The notes beneath the pieces were generated by a model. That model was given only the letters and a program-made list of their open reading frames with translations. It had not been told where the DNA came from and ran no database searches. A DNA stretch of 64,000 bases from Torymus aiolomorphi (taxonomy: Eukaryota; Arthropoda; Insecta; Hymenoptera; Torymidae). The position numbers and the translations under genes are program-made. Of the stretch, positions 1,792 to 63,552 are shown piece by piece. Location: positions 7,902,501-7,966,500 of the forward strand of contig CM070875.1 in the NCBI GenBank assembly GCA_036365515.1, read 5' to 3'. Each line of letters opens with the position of its first letter. The first letter of the stretch is position 1.

Positions 1792-4085
1792 TCAGCTGCT
1801 TTCTCTTACCCATTGTTTTAGTTTTAGTTTTCTGCTGTGTTTGATTCTAATTGTTTTTAATTCATTCGGTAGATTATTGAATTGTGTTATTGATCTAATA
1901 TAACTGTTTTTAATACTAATGGTGAAATATCTTCTTGGAATCTGTATCCTTTTTTTCTTAGTGGAGCTATTGAAGTTTATATATGCTGTCTGTAAGTCTT
2001 CGTAATGATACAATAGTGATTCATAAGTAAAGATTTGATCTATGCTCATAGGATTTTTTTCGACTGTAAATTTGTTTTTATTGATTATTTTAAGTAATCT
2101 GCTCTGCAGTCTAATAAGCAAGTTTTTACTGTTAGAATACGCTCCTCCCCATGCTGTTATTCAATATGAAATAATGCTGTGAAAGAGGGCGTAATATATC
2201 ATTCTTAGGGTATCAGTATTCATGAGTTTAGATAGCTATAGAATACGAAAATGAGATGTTTAGTTTTGTTGTATATGTATTCGATGTGCTCGTTCGATCT
2301 CATGTAACTATCGAAAATTATGCCTAAATATTTGGTACTGTCCACTCTTTCAATTTGTGTGCCTTGTATATTTATGTCTAAATTTTTAGGTGTGCTGTCT
2401 ACTTGATTCCCAAATTCAATGTATACTGTTTTGTCCGTATTTAAAGAAAGCTTATTAAGAGCTAACCATGTTGATATTTTGTGCAGTGTTTCGTTCATTT
2501 TGGTTTCGACTTCTTTCCATGTTTTGGCTGAGGTTACTACTGCTGTATCATCTACGTATGCGAGTATGTTATCTTCAGGGATATCTAGTAGTAGATCGTT
2601 GATATATAGTAAGAAGAGTAGAGGTCCCAGAATTGTTCCTTGTGGAACACCCATGTTGACGGATTCGAGATGACTGATTGTGTTATTTAATTTTACTTTT
2701 TGCAGTCTATTTCTTAGATAATTTTTATTAGATTATGTGTACTTCCTCTAATACCCTAATTGTATAGTTTATCTAGTAGTATTTGATGGTTTACAGTATC
2801 AAAAGCTTTTGCGAGTCTAAGAAAATTATGGCGATTGGTGTACTCTTATCTAACTTCTCATACATTACAGTTGATATTAGTATTAGCGCATCTTTTGTAT
2901 TATTATTTTTCCTGAAGCCATACTTATTTTTGACAAGTATGTCGCATTTATTGATAAAAGTAATTATTCTTTTGTGTATTATTTTTTCTAGAACTTTTGC
3001 TAAATTAGTGGCAATGTGTTTTTCTTTTGATTTATGTATAGGTATAACTTCAGCTAATTTCAAGGCATCTGGCCAGATGGCTTTATCTATATAGAGGTTG
3101 TAAATGTGGGTTAGAGGGTCTACTAAATGTTCTACTAGGGTTTTTAATGTTTTAGTGTTGATATTATCAACTCCCCCATTTTTGTTTACCATACTGTTGA
3201 TGATATTTTCGATTTCGTGATCGTTTGTTGGCTCAAAGAAAATACTTTTGCAGTTCATTGTAGGGAGTTTAATTTCCTCATTTATCGGAGGTCTTATTTT
3301 GTCACTTAGCTTTTTGCCAATGTTACCAAAAAATGTGTTCAAGTGCTCAGCAATTTTTTTAGGATCTCATATTTTCTTATTGTTATCTATTATGTAGTTA
3401 ATGTTATTTTTCTTTTTACAATTTTTACCAATTTTTTGATTTATCACATTCCACATACTCTTGATATTATTCATGCTGAATTCGATTAGTTTTTTATCAT
3501 ACGACTCCTTTGCTTTATTTATAATATTCTTGAGGATATTTGTAAATTTCTTATACTCTTCTCTTTTTCTAGTACTACTAGGGTCTTTTTTCCATAATTT
3601 ATATAGTTTTTCTTTGGTATTACATGATATCATAATTGCCTTTGTTATCCAATCTTTCCTTGGTTTCATGTTGTTAGTTTTGTTAGTTTTTCTGGTATAT
3701 TCAGCTTTGCTTAGACATATTTTTATTTTATCAATAAGGTTATTTAAAGCAATATTCGGATCATTTATTTGTATCAGTTCACTCCAATTTATTGTAGAAG
3801 TATCTGTCCTGAGTTTATTGTAATTTATGCGATTTATAGTATGTATATTTTCAGTTCTTCTTATCTTATTTAATGACATAAAAAGTGGGAAATGGTCTGT
3901 TAGTGGTATACGGAATGTAAATGTTTTATAGTCTAATTTTATCTAGTTTAATAAAAATATTGTCTATGCATGTTCCAGAGTTACCTGTTTATCAGATGGT
4001 CTGGTAATATTACAAAAGCCTGGACAGTAACCATGTTCTAAGCGTATATGTAAAAATTCCTGATTGAGTGTATCTTGATTTGAAA
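1792..4085 (-). pseudogene. decayed non-LTR retrotransposon (LINE), endonuclease end plus reverse transcriptase
   Basis: Minus-strand remnant of a Jockey/CR1-like LINE ORF2, broken into several frames. From 5' to 3' on the minus strand: the end of the endonuclease domain (about 4085-3880, containing IPLTDHFPLF, the SDH-type motif); a linker of 170 aa (3879-3367); the reverse transcriptase N-part (3342-2791) with the GGVDNINTK and AEVIPIHKS blocks; the core (2654-2220) with MGVPQGTILGPLLFLLYIND and the catalytic YVDDT box; and the C-terminal part (2121-1792). Frameshifts or deletions separate these pieces: the expected NYRPIS block is lost after KEKHIATN, and an in-frame stop interrupts the segment SIISY*ITAWGGAY near 2150. 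The element is dead. The clade is inferred only from motif style. Confidence 0.85.
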
Positions 4086-24684: not shown

Positions 24685-25914
24685 TTATCTTAGTAGCATG
24701 TAATTAGATACCCTTCGTATTTCATACGCGCTTGAAATGTAGAATTCAGGGACGCTATGCAAATAGATTTCTACGATCACCTTTCTGCCCAAGACCCCCT
24801 GTGCGCCCACCATCCAGGGTGGATATCGGCCCAAGCTACAGCTACACACCGAAAAGTATTTCAAAGCTGGTAACCGATCTATGAGGCTCTTGTAAGCCTC
24901 TTCATTCATCGTCCTCGAACAGCCCAATGTCAGTCGCTCAATCTTCTCAAATGATTTATTTATGAGCACATCCTCGCCGGCGGGCATTTCGCTCGTGATC
25001 GTCAGTTCCTTGAGGTTCGGTAGATTTAATAAAAGCGTAATGTCATGGTCCTTCTTGCCCAAGAGCGACTTGCCCAGATCCACGGCCTCCAGCAATGAAC
25101 ATCTTCGGACTATATTGTTGAGTAGGCTCTTGGTCAGCTGACCGCCACTCACGCGAATTGAAAGTCGACGCAGATTCGGCAGTTGCGTAATGTTTTCCAA
25201 GTTCTGCTTATATTCCGCGCAGTCTCCGCTGTAAGAGAATGTCGTGAGCGACGGTGCGAGGAACGCAGCTATCTCTGGTGTCAGGTGGAAGAAAATACAA
25301 TCTTCTATCTGCAGGCTCTCCAGTATTCCGGGCGCCAACTTCAGCAGACATGTGCCAGTCATAGACATCTGATATTTCACGGTGAATCGTTTTAGGCGCT
25401 TGGCCCCACTGAAGAACTCGCCCAGCTGATCCTCGTTGATCGTTGGATTCCAGCCCAATATCAGTTCTTCCAAGTTCGGGCAGCCCCTGACCAGGTTAGT
25501 CAAATTATCGTTAGATACTATCAAGTACTGAGCGTCGAGGCGTTTCAGCTTGGGGCACCACTGCGACAGCAGCGGGATTGCCCGGGTGAACAGTGTATGC
25601 CTACATGTTCTTGTAAAATTGACATCTTCTATGTACTTACAGTGATAGCGTAGTATTTTATTTAGCTTGGATTCGTTCTCGATGACACTTTTATTTAAGA
25701 ACGTCAATTTACCAGTGTCGGTGTCAATCGTCAGACGTTTTGAATACAGGTGACCATATTCCCGACTCGTAGTTTTCCAGCGTTTGCACACTCGCTCGAC
25801 TTTCATTCTCTCGATCAGAGAAAGATATTGAAAGATATGCGCCAGAGTATATTCGTCAATATCCTTGAACGAGGAGGTCGTCACTACCTCAGATGCGCTG
25901 CTTGTTGATGCCAT
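24685..25914 (-). CDS. F-box / leucine-rich-repeat protein, 409 aa, single exon
   Basis: Intronless gene. The start chosen is the ATG at 25914-25912 (CATCAAGATGG context, protein MASTSSASEVV), because the frame's further 52 upstream codons come from short tandem repeats. Residues about 14-55 (FKDIDEYTLAHIFQYLSLIE and VKRWK-like RVCKRWK) form an F-box, which binds Skp1 in SCF ubiquitin ligases. Residues about 95-395 hold degenerate leucine-rich repeats, for example CPNLEELILGW, LPNLRRLSIRV, LLEAVDLGK, LPNLKELTITS and LPALKYFSVCS, expected to bind the substrate. Length fits FBXL-type proteins. The frame is intact. The substrate is unknown. Insects carry many lineage-specific single-exon F-box/LRR genes, and this looks like one; orthology to a named FBXL cannot be claimed. 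Confidence 0.9.
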   Translation of the reverse strand: MASTSSASEVVTTSSFKDIDEYTLAHIFQYLSLIERMKVERVCKRWKTTSREYGHLYSKRLTIDTDTGKLTFLNKSVIENESKLNKILRYHCKYIEDVNFTRTCRHTLFTRAIPLLSQWCPKLKRLDAQYLIVSNDNLTNLVRGCPNLEELILGWNPTINEDQLGEFFSGAKRLKRFTVKYQMSMTGTCLLKLAPGILESLQIEDCIFFHLTPEIAAFLAPSLTTFSYSGDCAEYKQNLENITQLPNLRRLSIRVSGGQLTKSLLNNIVRRCSLLEAVDLGKSLLGKKDHDITLLLNLPNLKELTITSEMPAGEDVLINKSFEKIERLTLGCSRTMNEEAYKSLIDRLPALKYFSVCSCSLGRYPPWMVGAQGVLGRKVIVEIYLHSVPEFYISSAYEIRRVSNYMLLR

Positions 25915-25931
25915 CTTGATGTTGGATGATT

Positions 25932-26120
25932 GGCAAAAGAACACGAAAAATGCAAGATGAGAAGCTGTCAAATTCCTGTTGAATACTTTCAATTGGCACA
26001 AGAACACGGAAGATGCGAGAAGATTGCTGTCAAAGTTTCGTTGGCCACTGTCTGGTTTGTAAAAGTACACGGAAGATGCGAGAAGGAAAGCTGTAAGAGT
26101 GCTATTGACGACTGCCTAGT
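25932..26120. repeat. three 63-bp tandem repeats at the 5' end of the F-box gene
   Basis: Units start at 25932, 25995 and 26058, exactly 63 bp apart. Units 2 and 3 share ACACGGAAGATGCGAGAAG, and unit 1 has a diverged version. The spacing is a multiple of three, and no stop falls in the F-box frame through the first two units and part of the third (to 26070), so an N-terminally extended protein of 461 aa is formally possible. More likely these are promoter or 5' UTR repeats. Confidence 0.8.
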
Positions 26121-28489: not shown

Positions 28490-29183
28490 TAACTGAGGAC
28501 GCTAGTTCCACGCATATAACGAAGTTACGTAGACGTGCGACGTAGGCAAGACTTTTATTTGCAAAATTCTTAACCTCTATAACTTGACTCCCTTATATGC
28601 GTGGACCTCGCGGCCCCGGCTACATGGGTTTAAAAATTATTTAAATAATCGTTTTGCTTATTGTTTCATGTCATCATGACTCTCTTATATGCGTGATCCT
28701 CGCGTCCCCCGGCTACTTGGATTTAAACATTATTTAAATAATCGTTTTGCTTATTGTTTCATGTCTTCATAACTCCCTTATATGCGTGAACCTTGCGTCT
28801 CTCAGCTAGTAGGGTTTACAAACTATTTAAATAATCGCTTTGCTTATTGTTTCATGTCTTCATGACTCCTTCATATTCGTGGACCTTGCGTTCCCCGGCT
28901 ACTTGGATTTAAAAATTATTCAAATAATCGTCTTACTTATTGTTCCACGTTTACGTAATTCCCTAACATGCGTGGACCTCGCGTCCTCCGGCTACTTGGG
29001 TTTAAAAATTATTTAAATAATCGTTTTGCTTATTTTTTCATGTCTACATGACTCCTTTACATGCGTGGACATCATATCTCCCGCCTACTTGGGTTTAAAA
29101 ATTGTTTAAATAATTGTCTTGCTTATTGTTGCATGTCTACGTAATTCCCTAACATGCGTCGACCTCATATACCCCGCCTACTT
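28490..29183 (+). repeat. 93-bp satellite, left block
   Basis: At least six units, recognised by CGTTTTGCTTATTGTTTCATG at about 28650, 28743, 28836, 28929 (variant), 29021 and 29115. Each also holds CTTGGGTTTAAAAATTATTT and ATGCGTGGACCTCGCG. A diverged unit precedes them. Confidence 0.85.
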
Positions 29184-50652: not shown

Positions 50653-51844
50653 TAGGGATGCACGAATACTCGACTCGACGTGTTTGAACAGTATCGAACT
50701 ATTTTTTCGAACTCGAGTCGAATACTCGATACTTCGAACTGTTCAATATCATCCGAACTACTCGAACACAATCAAACTGTTCGAACCAAATGAACTATTC
50801 GGACGTAACCGAACTACTCGGACGTGATCGAACTGTTCGGATGAGATCGAACTACTCGATTTTATCGAACTGTTCGGACCATGTCGGACTACTCGATTTC
50901 GTCGAACTGTTCGAACGAGATCGAACTATTCGGTTTCATCGAACTGTTCGAACCAAGTCGGACTATTCGATTTTATCGAACTATTCGGACCAGATCGGAC
51001 TATTCGATTTCGTCAAATTGTTCGAATCAGGTCGGACTATTCAATTTATGTCAAATTATTCGAATCACGTCGAATGCGAACCCTAGAGTCTCGAATCTCA
51101 AAAGGAGTAACAAAAAAAGATAAACATAGACCGGTAGGCGTGCTTAACGCACTAAGTAACTATAACAGATAATATTTTATTGTATCAGATATGAATATAG
51201 AGATTGTCAGCACTCTGTAGAAAAAGTGAGGCGGCTTCATACATTGCACACGGTATGCTGCTACTTCTCACGGCCAAGGAGATTCGGTAAAAAATTCAGG
51301 AAAAAATAGAGAGGTAGAAGTGCTAGAAACCACTTTTCAACCGTCATTGAACTATTCAATCGGACTTCGAATATAGTTTAATTATATCGCATAGTTTGAT
51401 CATTTGCAACAGTTTAAATATATTGAACAATTCGATCATATCAAACTGTTCGATTTAACTTCGAACAGTTTGATTATTTCGAACAGTTCGACACGATCGA
51501 CTAGTTCGATTATTTCGGATAGTTCGAAGTCGATCGAACTGTCCGATCATTTTGAACTCTTCCATCATGTCGAACAGTTCGAAGTCGATCGAACTGTCCG
51601 ATCATTTCGAACTGTTCGATCATGTCGAACAGTTCGAAGTCGATCGAACTGTCCAATCATTTCGAACTGTCTGATCATTTTGAACTATTCGCTCATGTCG
51701 AACAGTTCGAAGTCGATCGAACTGTCCGATCATTTCGAACTATTCGATTGAGTTCGAGTAGTTTGATACATTCGAGTAATCAGTTCGACTCGACTCGAGA
51801 ATTTGGACCGAGTAGTTCGAATTTCGAACAGTCCGACACCCCTA
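50653..51844. mobile_element. hAT-type element filled with TTCGAAC-type repeats
   Basis: The 8-bp duplication TCTTCAGG lies at 50645-50652 and 51845-51852. Ends TAGGGATGCACG and, in complement, TAGGGGTGTCGG. The interior is a degenerate array of about 20-24-bp units built on CGAACTGTTCGA-type imperfect palindromes; the right third has a regular long unit (GAACAGTTCGAAGTCGATCG at about 51514, 51573, 51627 and 51698). Open frames through it (for example 50790-51086) are periodic by-products. Confidence 0.75.
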
Positions 51845-57780: not shown

Positions 57781-58262
57781 ACGAATTTTGAGCCGTAATT
57801 ATATCGAACGAAATCTTATAATATTTTTTCAAACTGTGTATATATTATACTATAGTTTACTGATTATTAATTTATTATGGGAAACATAAATTAATAATAT
57901 ATATGTACAAATCCGCGGAGTGCAAAGAACAACTTGCGTACAAAAACGGAAAAAATTTTTTTTGAGGGCACACCTACCACATATAAGGTTTTTTCAGTTC
58001 TTTGGGGGTCCCCCAACATGAAAATACACGTGAACACTCATTATTCGTTGCCAAGCTTTTTTGCCGACGAAATCAATTTTTCTTATGGAAATCTAACATG
58101 GGAAAAATGGAGGAAAAGTAGTCATGATGATTAACCGATAGCAAACTATTGAAAAGGATTAAAGTTGAAGAACAGAGCTTTAATTTGAGACTAGAATCGT
58201 TAAAATCGGTCGATTCTGTGCAAAGCTACGTAAATTTGAAAATGGCGAATAATTACGAAAAT

Positions 58263-60720
58263 GAGCGATTTTTTCAAACCCACTGTAACGGAACCGTCTA
58301 CGATGGGAAAATTTTTTTTTGTATATATTTTTATGCGATGAACCATAGTCATAACCCTGAACACCTACTACCCTACCGATACTATTGCACCAAGGGTTGT
58401 AGATGTGACCTGCGCTTCTCGGAGTCTCAAGCTGTCATAAAACACCGACGCGGCGCATGCTTTAAAATTTCTGAATTTTTAATCTTGTAATTTCCTTTTC
58501 CTTAAAAGGCTATATTTAGACTTAATATAAAAACGGACTGTAAACTTTCCTTTCTTCTTGATAAAGACAAACACTACTTTTAAATAAATAAAAATTATAT
58601 CCGATTATACCTACGATCACAGATACTGTAAAATTATAATACGCAATTGTTTATCGAAGATTATTATATTCTCTTGTACAAAAGTAAGTAACCTCACTCT
58701 AATAAAAAAATGTTCAATAGTAAAACCTTTAGTTGAATTACAATATTTCTGCAATACAATTTTATTTAGAAATACTTCAGTTGTATTAATGAGTTAGTTA
58801 TAAATTAGGGTTAATTTTCTACAAGGATATATTTTAAATAATAATTTAAGTACGAATTGTTAAACAAACCCTTGTGCAATAATCACAATTGTAATTCTTC
58901 CTTTATACGTTTGACCTAACTAGCAAACCGTTCCAAACGCGAGGTATAAGAGTTTATAAGGTTTTCCATTCACAATCACAAACAAATATAAAATTACAAT
59001 AACTACTTTAAGACACATTCATGAAAGAATATTTTTCCTACTCAAATAATGAAACTTATTCAACCTTCTGTTTTTCTTCTGCTATAAATAAATAAACTGT
59101 TTTATTACATATCACAAATTTAACAAACATTTTTGGATTTTGAACAATTACTGTGAGTTGAAAATATTCCTTCAAAATGTGGAATTAGCCTTAAGAAGAC
59201 GATAGCCCTAGCGGATGCGTAATCTTGGGGCTGTAAAACACATGGCCCATACTAAATATAGATACGACGCTTTCCCACGCAGGGACGCGCTTTTCCGAGT
59301 TTTTCAAAACATGACTTATACTATACATTGAAATATTATTTTACATTATCTCTCAAACCGTTATCAATAAAATTATTTTAACAACAACCGATATTAAATA
59401 TAACAGTAAGGAAATTAGGAAAAATAATATTAATTATATATATTCTTTGTTAAATTGCAATCAACAGCTTTGTTGTTTTTGTATTAATAATACAAAGATC
59501 TAGTAACAAAAACCCAAAAATATAGCTCTATGAGTAACCATATGCATTTTATAAACGCAACCTATAACCATGTAAAGAATCTTTATTAACCAACGATAAA
59601 TAATTACTATAATAGCTATTATATTATATAAATCAACAAGTTTTGATAACAAAGCATTTAGGTTTTAGTTTATTTTAGATAATTGACTGTTATTATAAAT
59701 TTATCATATATGATTTCATTGTAAATTAGATTATTAAGTTAGTAAAATTTTGTATTCCGAATAACTATCATTAAAATAGTCGTAGCATTTTCATTCAAGT
59801 TGTAATATCTTGCTACATAATTATTTAGTAAGATAAATAATTCAATTCATGGTAGAATATCTAGATTGTTAATTATAGGAAAAACCGAGACAAAGAAGAT
59901 GTTTGTCAGCTACATCAGCCCCAAAACACATGGCTCGTCTAAAAATAGATTTTTCTCAGTCTTCCTGCGCGGAGACGCATTTTCCAGCATCTTTTGGGAC
60001 TCAATGTACTATAGCATAAGAATATTATTTTAGAATAACGCTAGATATCTCATTAATTATAATTAGAAAAATAATTTTTGTTTAAGATAAAAGTTGCATT
60101 ATGTTAAGTAAAAATTAAGAGATGAGAAAATCCATTATTATAATATGTTTTTAGTAATAATAATCCATTTGTCTATTTCTACTAGATTAACTAACTAGAC
60201 TTTAAGTTTAGATGATAAACTGTTTAGAATTTGAATAATACATTTGTAATTCGTACGTTTTCTTAATAATAATTAACTATTATGACTATTTATAAGTAAT
60301 TTTCATTGTTAATGCAAGTTTTATGAAATATACACATTAGATAAAACATTTTACTGGACAATAGTTGTATTTTAACACATTGTTACTTACGAAAACTAAT
60401 TAAATTTCAAATATTTTAAATAAATAATAGAAAATCTAAGGAAAATGTATTAATTTAATAAAATAACTTAATAATATGATTGATATATTAGCTAGAATGA
60501 ATAGTCTAATGTTTTTATAAAGTTTGCATAAGAAATTTCATTGTTTAATGTATAATTAAGTTTATAAAATTTGTAATGCGTTTAACTCCTGTTGTAATAG
60601 ACCGATAACTTCCGTTCAAATTTGTATTTTCATTTTAGAACAAAATGTAATAGAATAACATATTTTATAATTTATAAACTGCCAACATTGTATAATTTTC
60701 AGCAAGTAACAGAAAATTGA
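58263..60720. other. AT-rich interior of the large element
   Basis: A 113-aa frame (58149-58490, +) partly lies in the terminal repeat and matches nothing known to me. Two related GC-richer segments occur about 0.7 kb apart: both contain AAAACACATGGC followed by TAAAxATAGAT and GxGACGCxxTTTCC (about 59225-59300 and 59920-59990). Confidence 0.4.
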
Positions 60721-61145
60721 TCATTTTTGACTCGAAAGAAAGAGAAGGATATATCTTTTGTCTCTCTCATCTCTCTTTCTCTGTCGCACATATATCGTTC
60801 TCTCTCGCTCCTTAAAGAAGATACGAGCCGCCGGAAAATACCCTAGAAAAGGGATAAGGGACCGCTCTCTGCCGCTCTCTGTGTTAAAACATAGGATTTT
60901 CCCCACTATCACAAAAATCGACGTTTGGAAGGGATGACGCCCCGCACCATTGGGCACCGCTTTCCCGCACCACTCGCTCCATTTAACATTATGGGTATGC
61001 AAAGCATCAACCGCCGCCGAAAAATATCATCGATGACTCGTTGACCCAAGATGACGCAACTACCCGATTCGACACCGCAGTTTTTCCAGCCGAAGAAGAG
61101 GAGGAGCAATGGATTTAAATACGCCGAACGCGCACTACACGGGTG
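60721..61145. other. moderately GC-rich unique stretch
   Basis: Begins with CT-rich DNA (60755-60810). Two overlapping minus-strand frames of 93 and 106 aa are present, but neither matches a family I recognise. Confidence 0.3.
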
Positions 61146-61390
61146 CAGTTCACCACAAGCCTCACAAGCTTTACTGAACTGACCAAGGCAGTTCACCACA
61201 AGCTTCACAAGCTTTACTGAACTGACCAAGGCAGTTCACCACAAGCCTCACAAGCTTTGCTGACTGTACAGCAGTTCACCACAAGCCTCACAAGCTTTAC
61301 TGAACTGACCAAGTCAGATCAACATAAGCCTCACAAGCTTTGCTGACTGTACAGCAGATCGACACAAGCCTCACAAGCTTAAAGACTCTG
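61146..61390 (+). repeat. tandem array C: six ~40-bp hairpin units
   Basis: Units start at about 61146, 61189, 61232, 61272, 61315 and 61352. Each can fold: CAGTTCA pairs with TGAACTG outside, and AAGC pairs with GCTT inside (AAGCCTCACAAGCTT). Later units have CAGATC in place of CAGTTC. Confidence 0.8.
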
Positions 61391-61532
61391 TACACAAATT
61401 CAAACTCTCAAATAAAATATTCAAATTTTTTTTCCAAAATCAAATTTTCGAAATTCATTTTTCCAAAACTTCTAAAAAATTTTAACATACTAATTCCAAA
61501 ATTATCAAATTAATTATATTCGAAACTACTTT

Positions 61533-62523
61533 TCTAAACCATAGTTGTTACGACCTTACGGGTAAGCATACTCCTATTGGTTTAGAAAAGAATTAAGTAA
61601 ACATAACGGCAGTTGTACGACCTTACGGGTAAGCCTCACTGGTTGTGTTTACAAAGAATATTATTAATTATAATAAATTTCATATTACAAGATTCAAAGG
61701 AACTTATATTGAAAGAAAAAAATATAAAGAACACAAAAATAAGAAGGTAAATAAAATCTTCAATTAACTGTATTCAGTATTTCTTCTCTAAACCATAGTT
61801 GTTACGACCTTACGGGTAAGCATACTCCTATTGGTTTAGAAAAGGATTAAGCAAACATAACGGCAGTTGTACGACCTTACGGGTAAGCCTCACTGGTTGT
61901 GTTTGCAAAGAATATAATTAAATTATATTAAATGTTCTCATTACAATAAAGAAAATAATAAAATCTTCAATTAGATATATCCTAAATTACTTCTCTAAAC
62001 CATAATTGTTACGACCTTACGGGTAAGCATACTCCTATTGGTTTAGAAAAGAATTAAGTAAACATAACGGCAGTTGTACGACCTTACGGGTAAGCCTCAC
62101 TGGTTGTGTTTACAAGGAATATTTTAATTTATAAGATTTTTCCAGTTTACAATAAGAAAGTAATAAAATCTTCAATTAGATATATCCTAAATTACTTCTC
62201 TAAACCATAGTTGTTACGACCTTACAGGTAAGCATACTCCTATTGGTTTAGAAAAGAATTAAGTAAACATAACGGCAGTTGTACGACCTTACGGGTAAGC
62301 CTCACTGGTTGTGTTTACAAGGAATATTTTAATTTATAAGATTTTTCCAGTTTACAATAAGAAAGTAATAAAATCTTCAATTAGATATATCCTAAATTAC
62401 TTCTCTAAACCATAGTTGTTACGACCTTACGGGTAAGCATACTCCTATTGGTTTAGAAAAGAATTAAGTAAACATAACGGCAGTTGTACGACCTTACGGG
62501 TAAGCCTCACTGGTTGTGTTTAC
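61533..62523 (+). repeat. tandem array of five units, each with two structured hairpins
   Basis: Hairpin A (54 nt) at 61533, 61787, 61994, 62199 and 62404. Hairpin B (56 nt) at 61597, 61851, 62058, 62263 and 62468. Unit period is 254, then 205-207 bp. A and B have different outer stems (TCTAAACCA/TGGTTTAGA; GTAAACA/TGTTTAC) but share the core ACGACCTTACGGGTAAGC, whose inner part CTTAC-GG-GTAAG is itself a hairpin. In the second B copy, T-A in the stem is replaced by C-G on both sides (GCAAACA/TGTTTGC). Function unknown. Confidence 0.85.
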
Positions 62524-63097
62524 AAGGAATATTTTAATTTATAAGAAATTTCAGATTACAACTCTAAAACAATTTATATTAGAAAAAATTAAGAAACAAG
62601 AAAATCGTAGGAAAATTCTAAAGAAATTATCCTTTACTAAGATAAAAATTTATTTATTAAAAAGAAAAATATATATCAATCCCAAGAGGGATAAGTTACA
62701 TAAATAAAAATTAAATTCACACACGAGCTCTGCTCTTGATAGGGAAGGGCGAATCTGAGAATAACCTGAGACCGGGAAAAGTTATTAGAATCTCAAACTC
62801 CAGGTATCCAAGGAAAATCGTGCCCTTATTCCTAGTCCATACGGGGGTACATGCGGCCAAACGATCTTTACGAGACGTTCGTGCTACTCACCGTTGGTCC
62901 TTACGATAACCAAATCCTAAACCAAAAATTAGTCAAACTTAAATCTCAGCGATTAACAGTGAATTTGATATTACACTCCTGTCCACAGCTCGTCCATGGT
63001 TTATTAGCTAACGCAGCTACGACCAGAAAAGAGCATAACTCTTAATCGAGTTAAACATCCCAGTAATGTCGTGTCTTAGGACGTGACACCACGTAAT
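62524..63097. other. unique stretch right of the hairpin array
   Basis: AT-rich to 62720, then moderately GC-rich (62730-63060) without a recognisable gene. Confidence 0.35.
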
Positions 63098-63540
63098 TCT
63101 TCAAATTTTTGTCATTTTTCGCCATTTTCAAACTCACGTAGCTTTGCACAGAATTTACCGATTTTAACGATTCTAGTCTCAAATTAAAGCTCTGTTCTTC
63201 AACTTTAATAATTTTTTTTGTGAAATTTCGTTTGGCCTCTTCAATAGTTTGCAATTGGTTAATCATCAATGACTACTTTTCGTCCATTTTTCTCATGTTA
63301 GATTTCCATAAGAAAAATTGTTTTCGTCGGCAAAAAAGCTTGGCAACGGATAATGAGTGTTCGTGTGTATTTTCATGTTGAGGAACCCCCAAAGAACCGA
63401 AAAAACTTTATGTGGTAGGTGGGCCCTCAAAAAAAATTTTGTCCGTTTTTGTACCCAAGTTGTTGTCTGTAGTCCGCGGATTTGCACATATATATTATTA
63501 ATTTGTTTCCCATAATAAATTAATAATCAGTAAACTATAG

Positions 63541-63552
63541 TATGTGTGTGTG

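Follow-up and report, generated by a model that had tools for sequence, protein, structure and literature searches.

The tandem hairpin array at positions 61488-62563 of the window (the 64,000-nucleotide stretch of Torymus aiolomorphi contig CM070875.1 analysed here) belongs to the interior of an LTR of 4.8 kb and is no free-standing RNA gene. It is an RNA-like module without an Rfam match, situated in the LTR of a retrovirus-like family, and its structure is supported. The hairpins most likely act within the transcript of the element itself, as folded RNA signals, and not as a host RNA. As for the function of such signals, comparison of element copies leads us to put first, tentatively, a cis-acting leader signal for recognition and packaging by Gag.

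Units, Core, and Fold of the Array

The array consists of five direct copies of a ~205-bp unit, with spacings of 254, 207, 205, and 205 bases, and each unit contains a hairpin A and a hairpin B built around the common core ACGACCTTACGGGTAAGC. When up to three mismatches are allowed, this 18-base core is found at 10 places in the window, all of them inside the array, nine exact and one (in A4, the hairpin A of unit 4) with a single mismatch. As shuffled sequence gives a mean of 0.02 places per window (100 shuffles), the five units with paired hairpins and a common core, first described in an earlier note made from the letters alone, are confirmed.

All ten hairpins are read on the forward strand. 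Those of unit 1 (A, 61534-61585; B, 61597-61652) were delimited by sequence, fold, and core search; those of unit 2 (A, 61788-61839; B, 61851-61906), unit 3 (A, 61995-62046; B, 62058-62113), and unit 5 (A, 62405-62456; B, 62468-62523) by sequence, unit comparison, and core search; and those of unit 4 (A, 62200-62251, with the core ACGACCTTACAGGTAAGC; B, 62263-62318) by fold, unit comparison, and core search. In the window array, the outer stem of hairpin A is CTAAACCA/TGGTTTAG and that of hairpin B is GTAAACATAAC/GTTGTGTTTAC. Hairpin B of unit 2 carries the compensated pair GCAAACA/TGTTTGC instead, and this double change, also remarked on before, is present as described and keeps the pairing.

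The single change in A4 (G to A) is likewise present, but the proposal that it merely alters the two-base loop of an inner CTTAC/GTAAG hairpin calls for correction. The inner stem is better read as a predicted ACCU-UAC-RGGU hairpin, in which A4 converts an apical U.G pair to U-A; the same pair is C-G in some units of family II (defined below). Over a larger set of units, ACCU/RGGU explains both the CCC-GGG and the CCU-AGG variants, whereas a CUUA/UAAG stem is broken by the first and unchanged by the second. Exceptions exist to both readings, and GGAT variants break ACCU/RGGU in 3 of 62 hairpins A.

The folding energy of unit 1 has a z score of -3.4 relative to shuffles, and that of the complementary strand -3.2; both strands fold nearly equally well, so folding energy cannot pick the strand. 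The Rfam search that had been suggested as a check was run with the Rfam 15 covariance models and gave no match at the gathering score across the window. At E values up to 10, three matches fall in positions 61000-63000 (E 3.4-8.7), all of them sub-gathering and none on the hairpins. Known ribozymes and riboswitches were set aside on this ground. The earlier statement that the core belongs to no known ribozyme, riboswitch, or viral repeat thus holds as far as Rfam 15 goes, but it has to be amended in that the array belongs to the LTR of a retroelement. By eye, hairpin A bears what we take to be a likeness to the complement of the 3' end of 18S rRNA, which enters none of the explanations below. 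Among collections that cover non-eukaryotes only, the core pattern has no match in the viral contigs and a longer pattern none in the genome contigs. We found no description of such a hairpin array in the available parts of the literature, a negative result of little weight.

The Array Is Part of a Solo LTR

For the LTR comparison, 20 loci of 9.5-10 kb were fetched, the window locus included, and a long block is common to the window locus and all of the others (19/19). In the window, comparison of ends and length with these loci places a 4,805-bp solo LTR on the forward strand at 58284-63088 (TGTAAC...GTGACA), containing the array and bordered by the target site duplication CCAC (left copy, 58280-58283; right copy, 63089-63092). 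LTRs of the array family are 4.5-5.0 kb long and, wherever the ends could be located, begin with TGTAAC and end with GTGACA next to 4-bp duplications. Both ends could be located in 14 elements (12 solo LTRs and two LTR pairs), and the duplication is exact in all 14; four further elements, in which the 5' end was not found, are excluded from this count. Members of the two pairs have the same orientation, lie about 11 kb apart, and are 99.7% identical over 4,632 aligned bases and 99.9% identical over 4,320 aligned bases, the latter covering part of the LTR. With TG...CA ends, a short duplication, and near-identical pairs that have PBS-like and PPT-like regions between them, these are LTR retrotransposons.

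The insertion target of the window LTR is itself another repeat, whose two sides (57847-58262 and 63105-63543) are mutually inverted and 85.6% identical over 443 aligned positions. Elsewhere in the window, a 476-codon open frame on the reverse strand (24685-26115) has an F-box/leucine-rich look by eye, and broken frames on the same strand (2220-3942) look like a non-LTR reverse transcriptase. Other tandem arrays, made up of a 93-bp unit and of TCGAACTG-rich units, are found at 28585-29166 and 50827-51748.

Copies and Subfamilies in the Genome

The unit occurs at many dispersed places in the 1.08-Gb genome, with at least 193 matches when 40 of 266 candidates were scored. The core pattern with one base left free is found at 1,151 places (638 forward and 513 reverse), compared with none for a reversed control. 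Family I, which includes the window copy, has tandem units with 8-14 cores per locus (20 loci). Family II (for example L029-L032, L035-L037, L039, and L043) has the stems CCAAGCCA/TGGTTTGG and GTAAACATAAC/GTTATGTTTAC. Family III is the single-module form of the two-hairpin module, with one unit in L034, L041, and L047, two in L048, and units on both strands in L049; its hairpin A core differs, and the exact pattern of that core is found at four genomic places. Beside one family III solo LTR, open frames at L046:1995-3021 look carboxylesterase-like by eye.

Gag-only and Autonomous Elements Carry the Array

Two kinds of element have these LTRs. Gag-only elements contain a PBS-like stretch (TGGAGGCCCC), a PPT-like stretch (AGTAGGGGGG), and one long ORF with CCHC knuckles, which starts about 2.4 kb past the LTR. 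In L016 this gag-like ORF has at least 682 codons; L011 has it in two parts, of 226 and 495 codons. The match to the CCHC knuckle passes the Pfam cut-off in L011 but not in L016. There is no second ORF of 90 codons or more at 5400-9901 of L016, and no pol was found in the internal region of this copy. The gag-only protein (L011:7644-9781) has its CCHC knuckles at the N-terminal end and a capsid-like region that is tandemly duplicated, the two copies being 54% identical over 138 aligned positions. A search of a protein collection returned one match of 73% identity together with three weak ones. By eye, the capsid-like region of P0001 is seemingly a single copy.

One pair of family I arrays lies 17 kb apart and encloses a gag-like ORF with CCHC knuckles, a protease, an RT-RNase H-integrase, and a fusion-glycoprotein-like ORF. 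The autonomous copy (G000 C2:26827446-26849870, covered by L056-L062) is 22 kb long, with LTRs of about 5.35 kb and the duplication ATCA, and its ORFs match the Pfam families RVP, RVT_1, RNase H, integrase, and Monjiviricetes_fusion. The order of protease followed by RT-RNase H-integrase is found in the ORFs of L056 and L057, and by domain order alone the copy is assigned to the Ty3/gypsy type (Metaviridae). In the glycoprotein-like ORF after pol, the first 273 residues match Monjiviricetes_fusion at 5.8e-83. The elements presented in the available part of PMC12440569 were considered and set aside, since they have other ends and duplications.

The LTR borders, PBS-like region, and PPT-like region of the autonomous copy correspond to those of the gag-only elements, and its first LTR contains seven hairpin-pair units. 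Common to both kinds of copy are the LTR ends, the array, about 80 bp after the LTR, and the PPT-like region, as well as a leader piece of about 100 bp that is 90-93% identical between them and is repeated in the gag-only element. The two gag-like proteins both have CCHC knuckles and are alike chiefly there; neither reaches a Pfam gag domain.

Compared with the autonomous copy, the window copy is a mosaic of identity levels. The block at 61312-62546, which includes the hairpins, is 97.7% identical, compared with 75.4% over the 500 bp upstream of the TATA-like box described below and 86.6% in the LTR tail. This pattern points to recombination. One spacer measured within the block is 100% identical, and as the spacer is as identical as the hairpins, the 97.7% block would reflect recombination and not selection.

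Position of the Array in the Predicted Leader

A TATA-like box (TTTAAATA, 61114-61121, forward strand) lies within TTTAAATACGCCGA, which is present with up to two mismatches in 26 of the 36 loci from L009 to L044; it is missing from ten, namely L028 and nine short fetches. The box is a putative promoter element. L027 has an additional match to TTTAAATACGCCGA on the opposite strand, taken as chance. Many copies have GGTCAGTCAGATT about 20-30 bases past the TATA-like box, where the window copy reads differently. We infer from this arrangement a transcription start near 61145. A tandem-repeat search identified a 43-bp repeat at 61145-61380 of the forward strand, directly after the predicted start.

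In the DNA sequence, the array is 3' of the conserved TATA-like box and 5' of the PBS-like region. Because it is downstream of that box, it should sit in the transcribed leader, probably some 0.4-1.4 kb from the 5' end of the transcript and ahead of the PBS. Further downstream, a single conserved, hairpin-like element (ACGAGACGTTCGT, 62870-62882, forward strand) can form ACGAG/YUCGU. Counting overlapping loci, ACGAGACGYTCGT is present in 32 of 41 matches. In family II, ACGAG is replaced by ACAAG, and the element, near the LTR end, belongs to an island conserved between families I and II. It may or may not be part of the same signal as the hairpins.

Evidence for Selection on the Hairpin Structure

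The hairpins appear to be selected as structures. This conclusion follows from a contrast between changes on internal and on terminal branches and, in the comparison of family I with family II, from a higher conservation of the hairpins than of the flanks close by. Our structure test used 149 units from L009-L055 (143 plus six of family III), of which 70 are unique; stem strands were read by anchors, and parsimony served to assign the changes to branches of a FastTree tree, itself built from a MAFFT alignment. On internal branches, 11 of 14 stem changes keep the pairing (null 0.443; reached in 0 of 2000 replicates), compared with 22 of 54 on terminal branches, where changes are private to single copies (Fisher p=0.016). 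Selection in replicating lineages together with decay in dead copies would give this contrast. When all branches are pooled, 33 of 68 changes keep pairing, and this proportion (0.485) does not differ significantly from the null of 0.446 (224 of 2000).

The first unit was compared between families I and II (L035) in 30-base windows, of which those within the hairpins have 25-28 of 29-30 bases identical. The count is 9-23 of 28-30 in the six windows just upstream, returns to 26-28 of 27-30 at greater distance upstream, and ranges from 14 to 28 of 30 downstream. Between families I and III (L034), the hairpins have 24-27 of 29-30. Upstream of them the flank has 9-22 of 23-30, but the one close downstream, at 24-27 of 30, is about as well conserved as the hairpins.

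In a 17-sequence alignment, 94.3% of cells pair, compared with 30-45% when the partners are slid; the CTTAC/GTAAG inner stem reaches 94.0% in the same slide test. The RNAalifold covariation term is -0.73. Four pairs have double changes, compared with 3.6 in shuffles (266 of 500 shuffles reach four), whereas the number of cells with double changes (11 versus 5.5) and the covariation score both exceed the shuffles (3 of 500 each), in a control that ignores relatedness. With relatedness taken into account, the tree of 70 unique units has one double change on a single branch where 0.93 are expected. Classical covariation by double changes is therefore not significant on the tree, and of the earlier case for selection on a folded RNA, the covariation argument falls away; what carries the case now is the internal-terminal contrast and the conservation between families I and II.

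The sense RNA is more likely the strand that folds, because subfamily-wide G.U pairs, at columns 27-72 of the A stem (family II), at 98-139 of the B stem (family I), and at the apical U.G, can pair only there. Two subfamily-wide A-C positions, at the stem foot (21-78) and in the middle of B (106-133), speak against the sense strand. Changes towards G.U and towards A-C number 20 and 21 over all branches, and four and two on internal branches. The suggestion of either a folded RNA or single-stranded DNA can thus be narrowed to the first: the G.U pairs favour sense RNA, the two A-C positions notwithstanding, and single-stranded DNA is not needed.

Possible Functions of the Hairpins

The explanation that we put first, with a confidence that stops somewhat short of even, is that the array may serve as a cis-acting leader signal for Gag recognition and packaging, common to the autonomous and the gag-only elements. 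It takes this place because CCHC knuckles are found in both gag-like proteins, because the module is kept by helper and parasite alike, and because the array block is 97.7% identical in the window copy and in the autonomous one, in spite of the lower identity upstream and in the LTR tail. Each A/B pair would form a putative binding site for a protein that recognizes the conserved part of the hairpins, most likely a zinc-knuckle Gag. Tandem copies would raise the avidity of RNA recognition and packaging, and perhaps of pairing or export, and the RNA of a gag-only parasite would compete for particles made by the helper. The mosaic around the array block would be expected if two RNAs had recombined after co-packaging, which is easiest with both in one particle. 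Several findings weigh against this explanation: double changes and the pooled kept fraction are not significant on the tree, elements can have LTRs in common for many reasons (promoter, poly(A), and ends), the hairpin A core of family III is different, the downstream flank in L034 is conserved like the hairpins, and the gag-like proteins are alike chiefly in the knuckles and lack a Pfam gag domain. As an extension, which we regard as doubtful, the array might be a dosage-amplified recognition signal, with the env-bearing element and gag-only parasites swapping whole arrays and module number being a trait in a packaging contest.

The cores also resemble 5' splice sites presented in hairpins (CRG|GUAAGC), and they might instead be U1 snRNP sites that suppress premature polyadenylation in the 5' LTR or act as splice donors. 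In the predicted leader of 1,944 bases, the ten best U1-complementary 11-mers are the ten cores, with a complementarity of 9.5-10 of 11 in hairpin A and 8.5 in hairpin B; the next site has 8. AATAAA is present in the spacers of family I, and a precedent exists in foamy virus (available part of PMC3694450). However, the best site of one unit (9.5) is reached in 41 of 2000 shuffles, a p of about 0.02 obtained after several ideas had been tried, and seven sites of at least 9.5 occur on both strands of window positions 1-58000. Within the core, GGTAAGC shows no clear excess of constraint over the other bases (two internal plus 12 terminal changes, versus nine plus 18, not counting the additional T in hairpin A of family III), and the apical stem pairing of RGGU is itself kept. 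Hairpin A of family III reads GGTTAAG, and AATAAA is inconsistent in the spacers of families II and III, so inter-unit poly(A) signals were rejected as a conserved feature. On balance, we consider a U1 function unlikely.

A little less credit still goes to a constitutive nuclear-export element, in which the hairpins would recruit an mRNA export receptor for a long unspliced RNA. Folded cis-acting export elements are known in simple retroviruses, according to the partial sources at hand, and the very long leader of the gag-only element, where the gag ORF starts about 2.4 kb past the LTR, would suit such a role. On the other hand, the array matches no Rfam model and we see no evidence for an intron in the element.

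We give about the same small weight to the absence of any function of the array's own, whereby duplication and recombination would have spread an incidental fold, or palindromes would bind a protein as DNA. The spacer is homogenized along with the hairpins, the same LTR contains a second tandem repeat, and both strands fold, all of which would fit; however, the single-unit copies of family III keep the fold without an array, pairing differs between internal and terminal changes, and subfamily-wide G.U pairs would be A-C mismatches on the other strand, although two A-C positions are subfamily-wide too.

A new self-cleaving ribozyme of the retrozyme kind would account for a conserved core within variable paired stems, and retrozymes carry hammerhead ribozymes in their LTRs (as partial sources describe), but this is very improbable, since no Rfam ribozyme falls on the array even at E values up to 10 and many cleaving hairpins per LTR would presumably fragment the genomic RNA. 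Scarcely credible is an H/ACA snoRNA cluster carried by the LTR: the H/ACA layout of two hairpins, a hinge, and a tail, with an ACA box after the second hairpin, is approached by two hairpins in about 130 nt, an A-rich hinge (AGAAAAG), and, in many units of family I, an ACA that follows hairpin B, yet the apical stems are very short, Rfam gives no match, and the ACA box is not kept, the tail being GTTTACGAAG in family II and GTTTGCAAAG in copies of the unit-2 type.

Comparison with Known Systems and Implications

To our knowledge, the cis-acting RNA signals of insect-type retrovirus-like elements have been little studied. The partial sources at hand allow some comparison with other systems. 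Like the retroviral psi hairpins of MMTV and FIV, to which Gag binds, the array would be folded leader RNA with a conserved core in an element that encodes Gag, its leader position here being predicted; unlike them, the candidate signal is inside the LTR and repeated (each of the 20 family I loci has 8-14 cores), with Gag binding a proposal. Foamy virus has a 5'-splice-site-like sequence at the major splice donor of its R region, within a folded LTR leader, and a U1-dependent control of polyadenylation (available part of PMC3694450); it has one such site, whereas the window copy has ten in tandem, and the U1 statistics here are weak. The constitutive transport elements of simple retroviruses are similarly structured RNAs in a non-coding part of a retroelement, but the array is in the LTR and has no Rfam match. 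The gag-only elements share with TR-GAG elements the LTRs, PBS-like and PPT-like regions, a gag-like ORF, and the lack of a pol in the copy read; the TR-GAG papers at hand, however, concern plants, while the family described here is animal, and its LTR, 4.5-5.0 kb long, contains an RNA array.

The autonomous element, with its Monjiviricetes_fusion-type ORF, may be a useful case for the study of glycoprotein capture, for which the available part of PMC10084718 reports no clear evidence as regards capture of Jingchuvirales glycoproteins by Gypsy elements. The array also illustrates that a pattern resembling a host RNA gene can be part of an LTR. In this one genome a candidate signal occurs at more than 1,000 places, both as single units and in tandem, in an autonomous element and in gag-only elements with apparently the same ends. 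Such a compact RNA module would make competition between helper and parasite, whether over packaging, export, or poly(A) control, testable.
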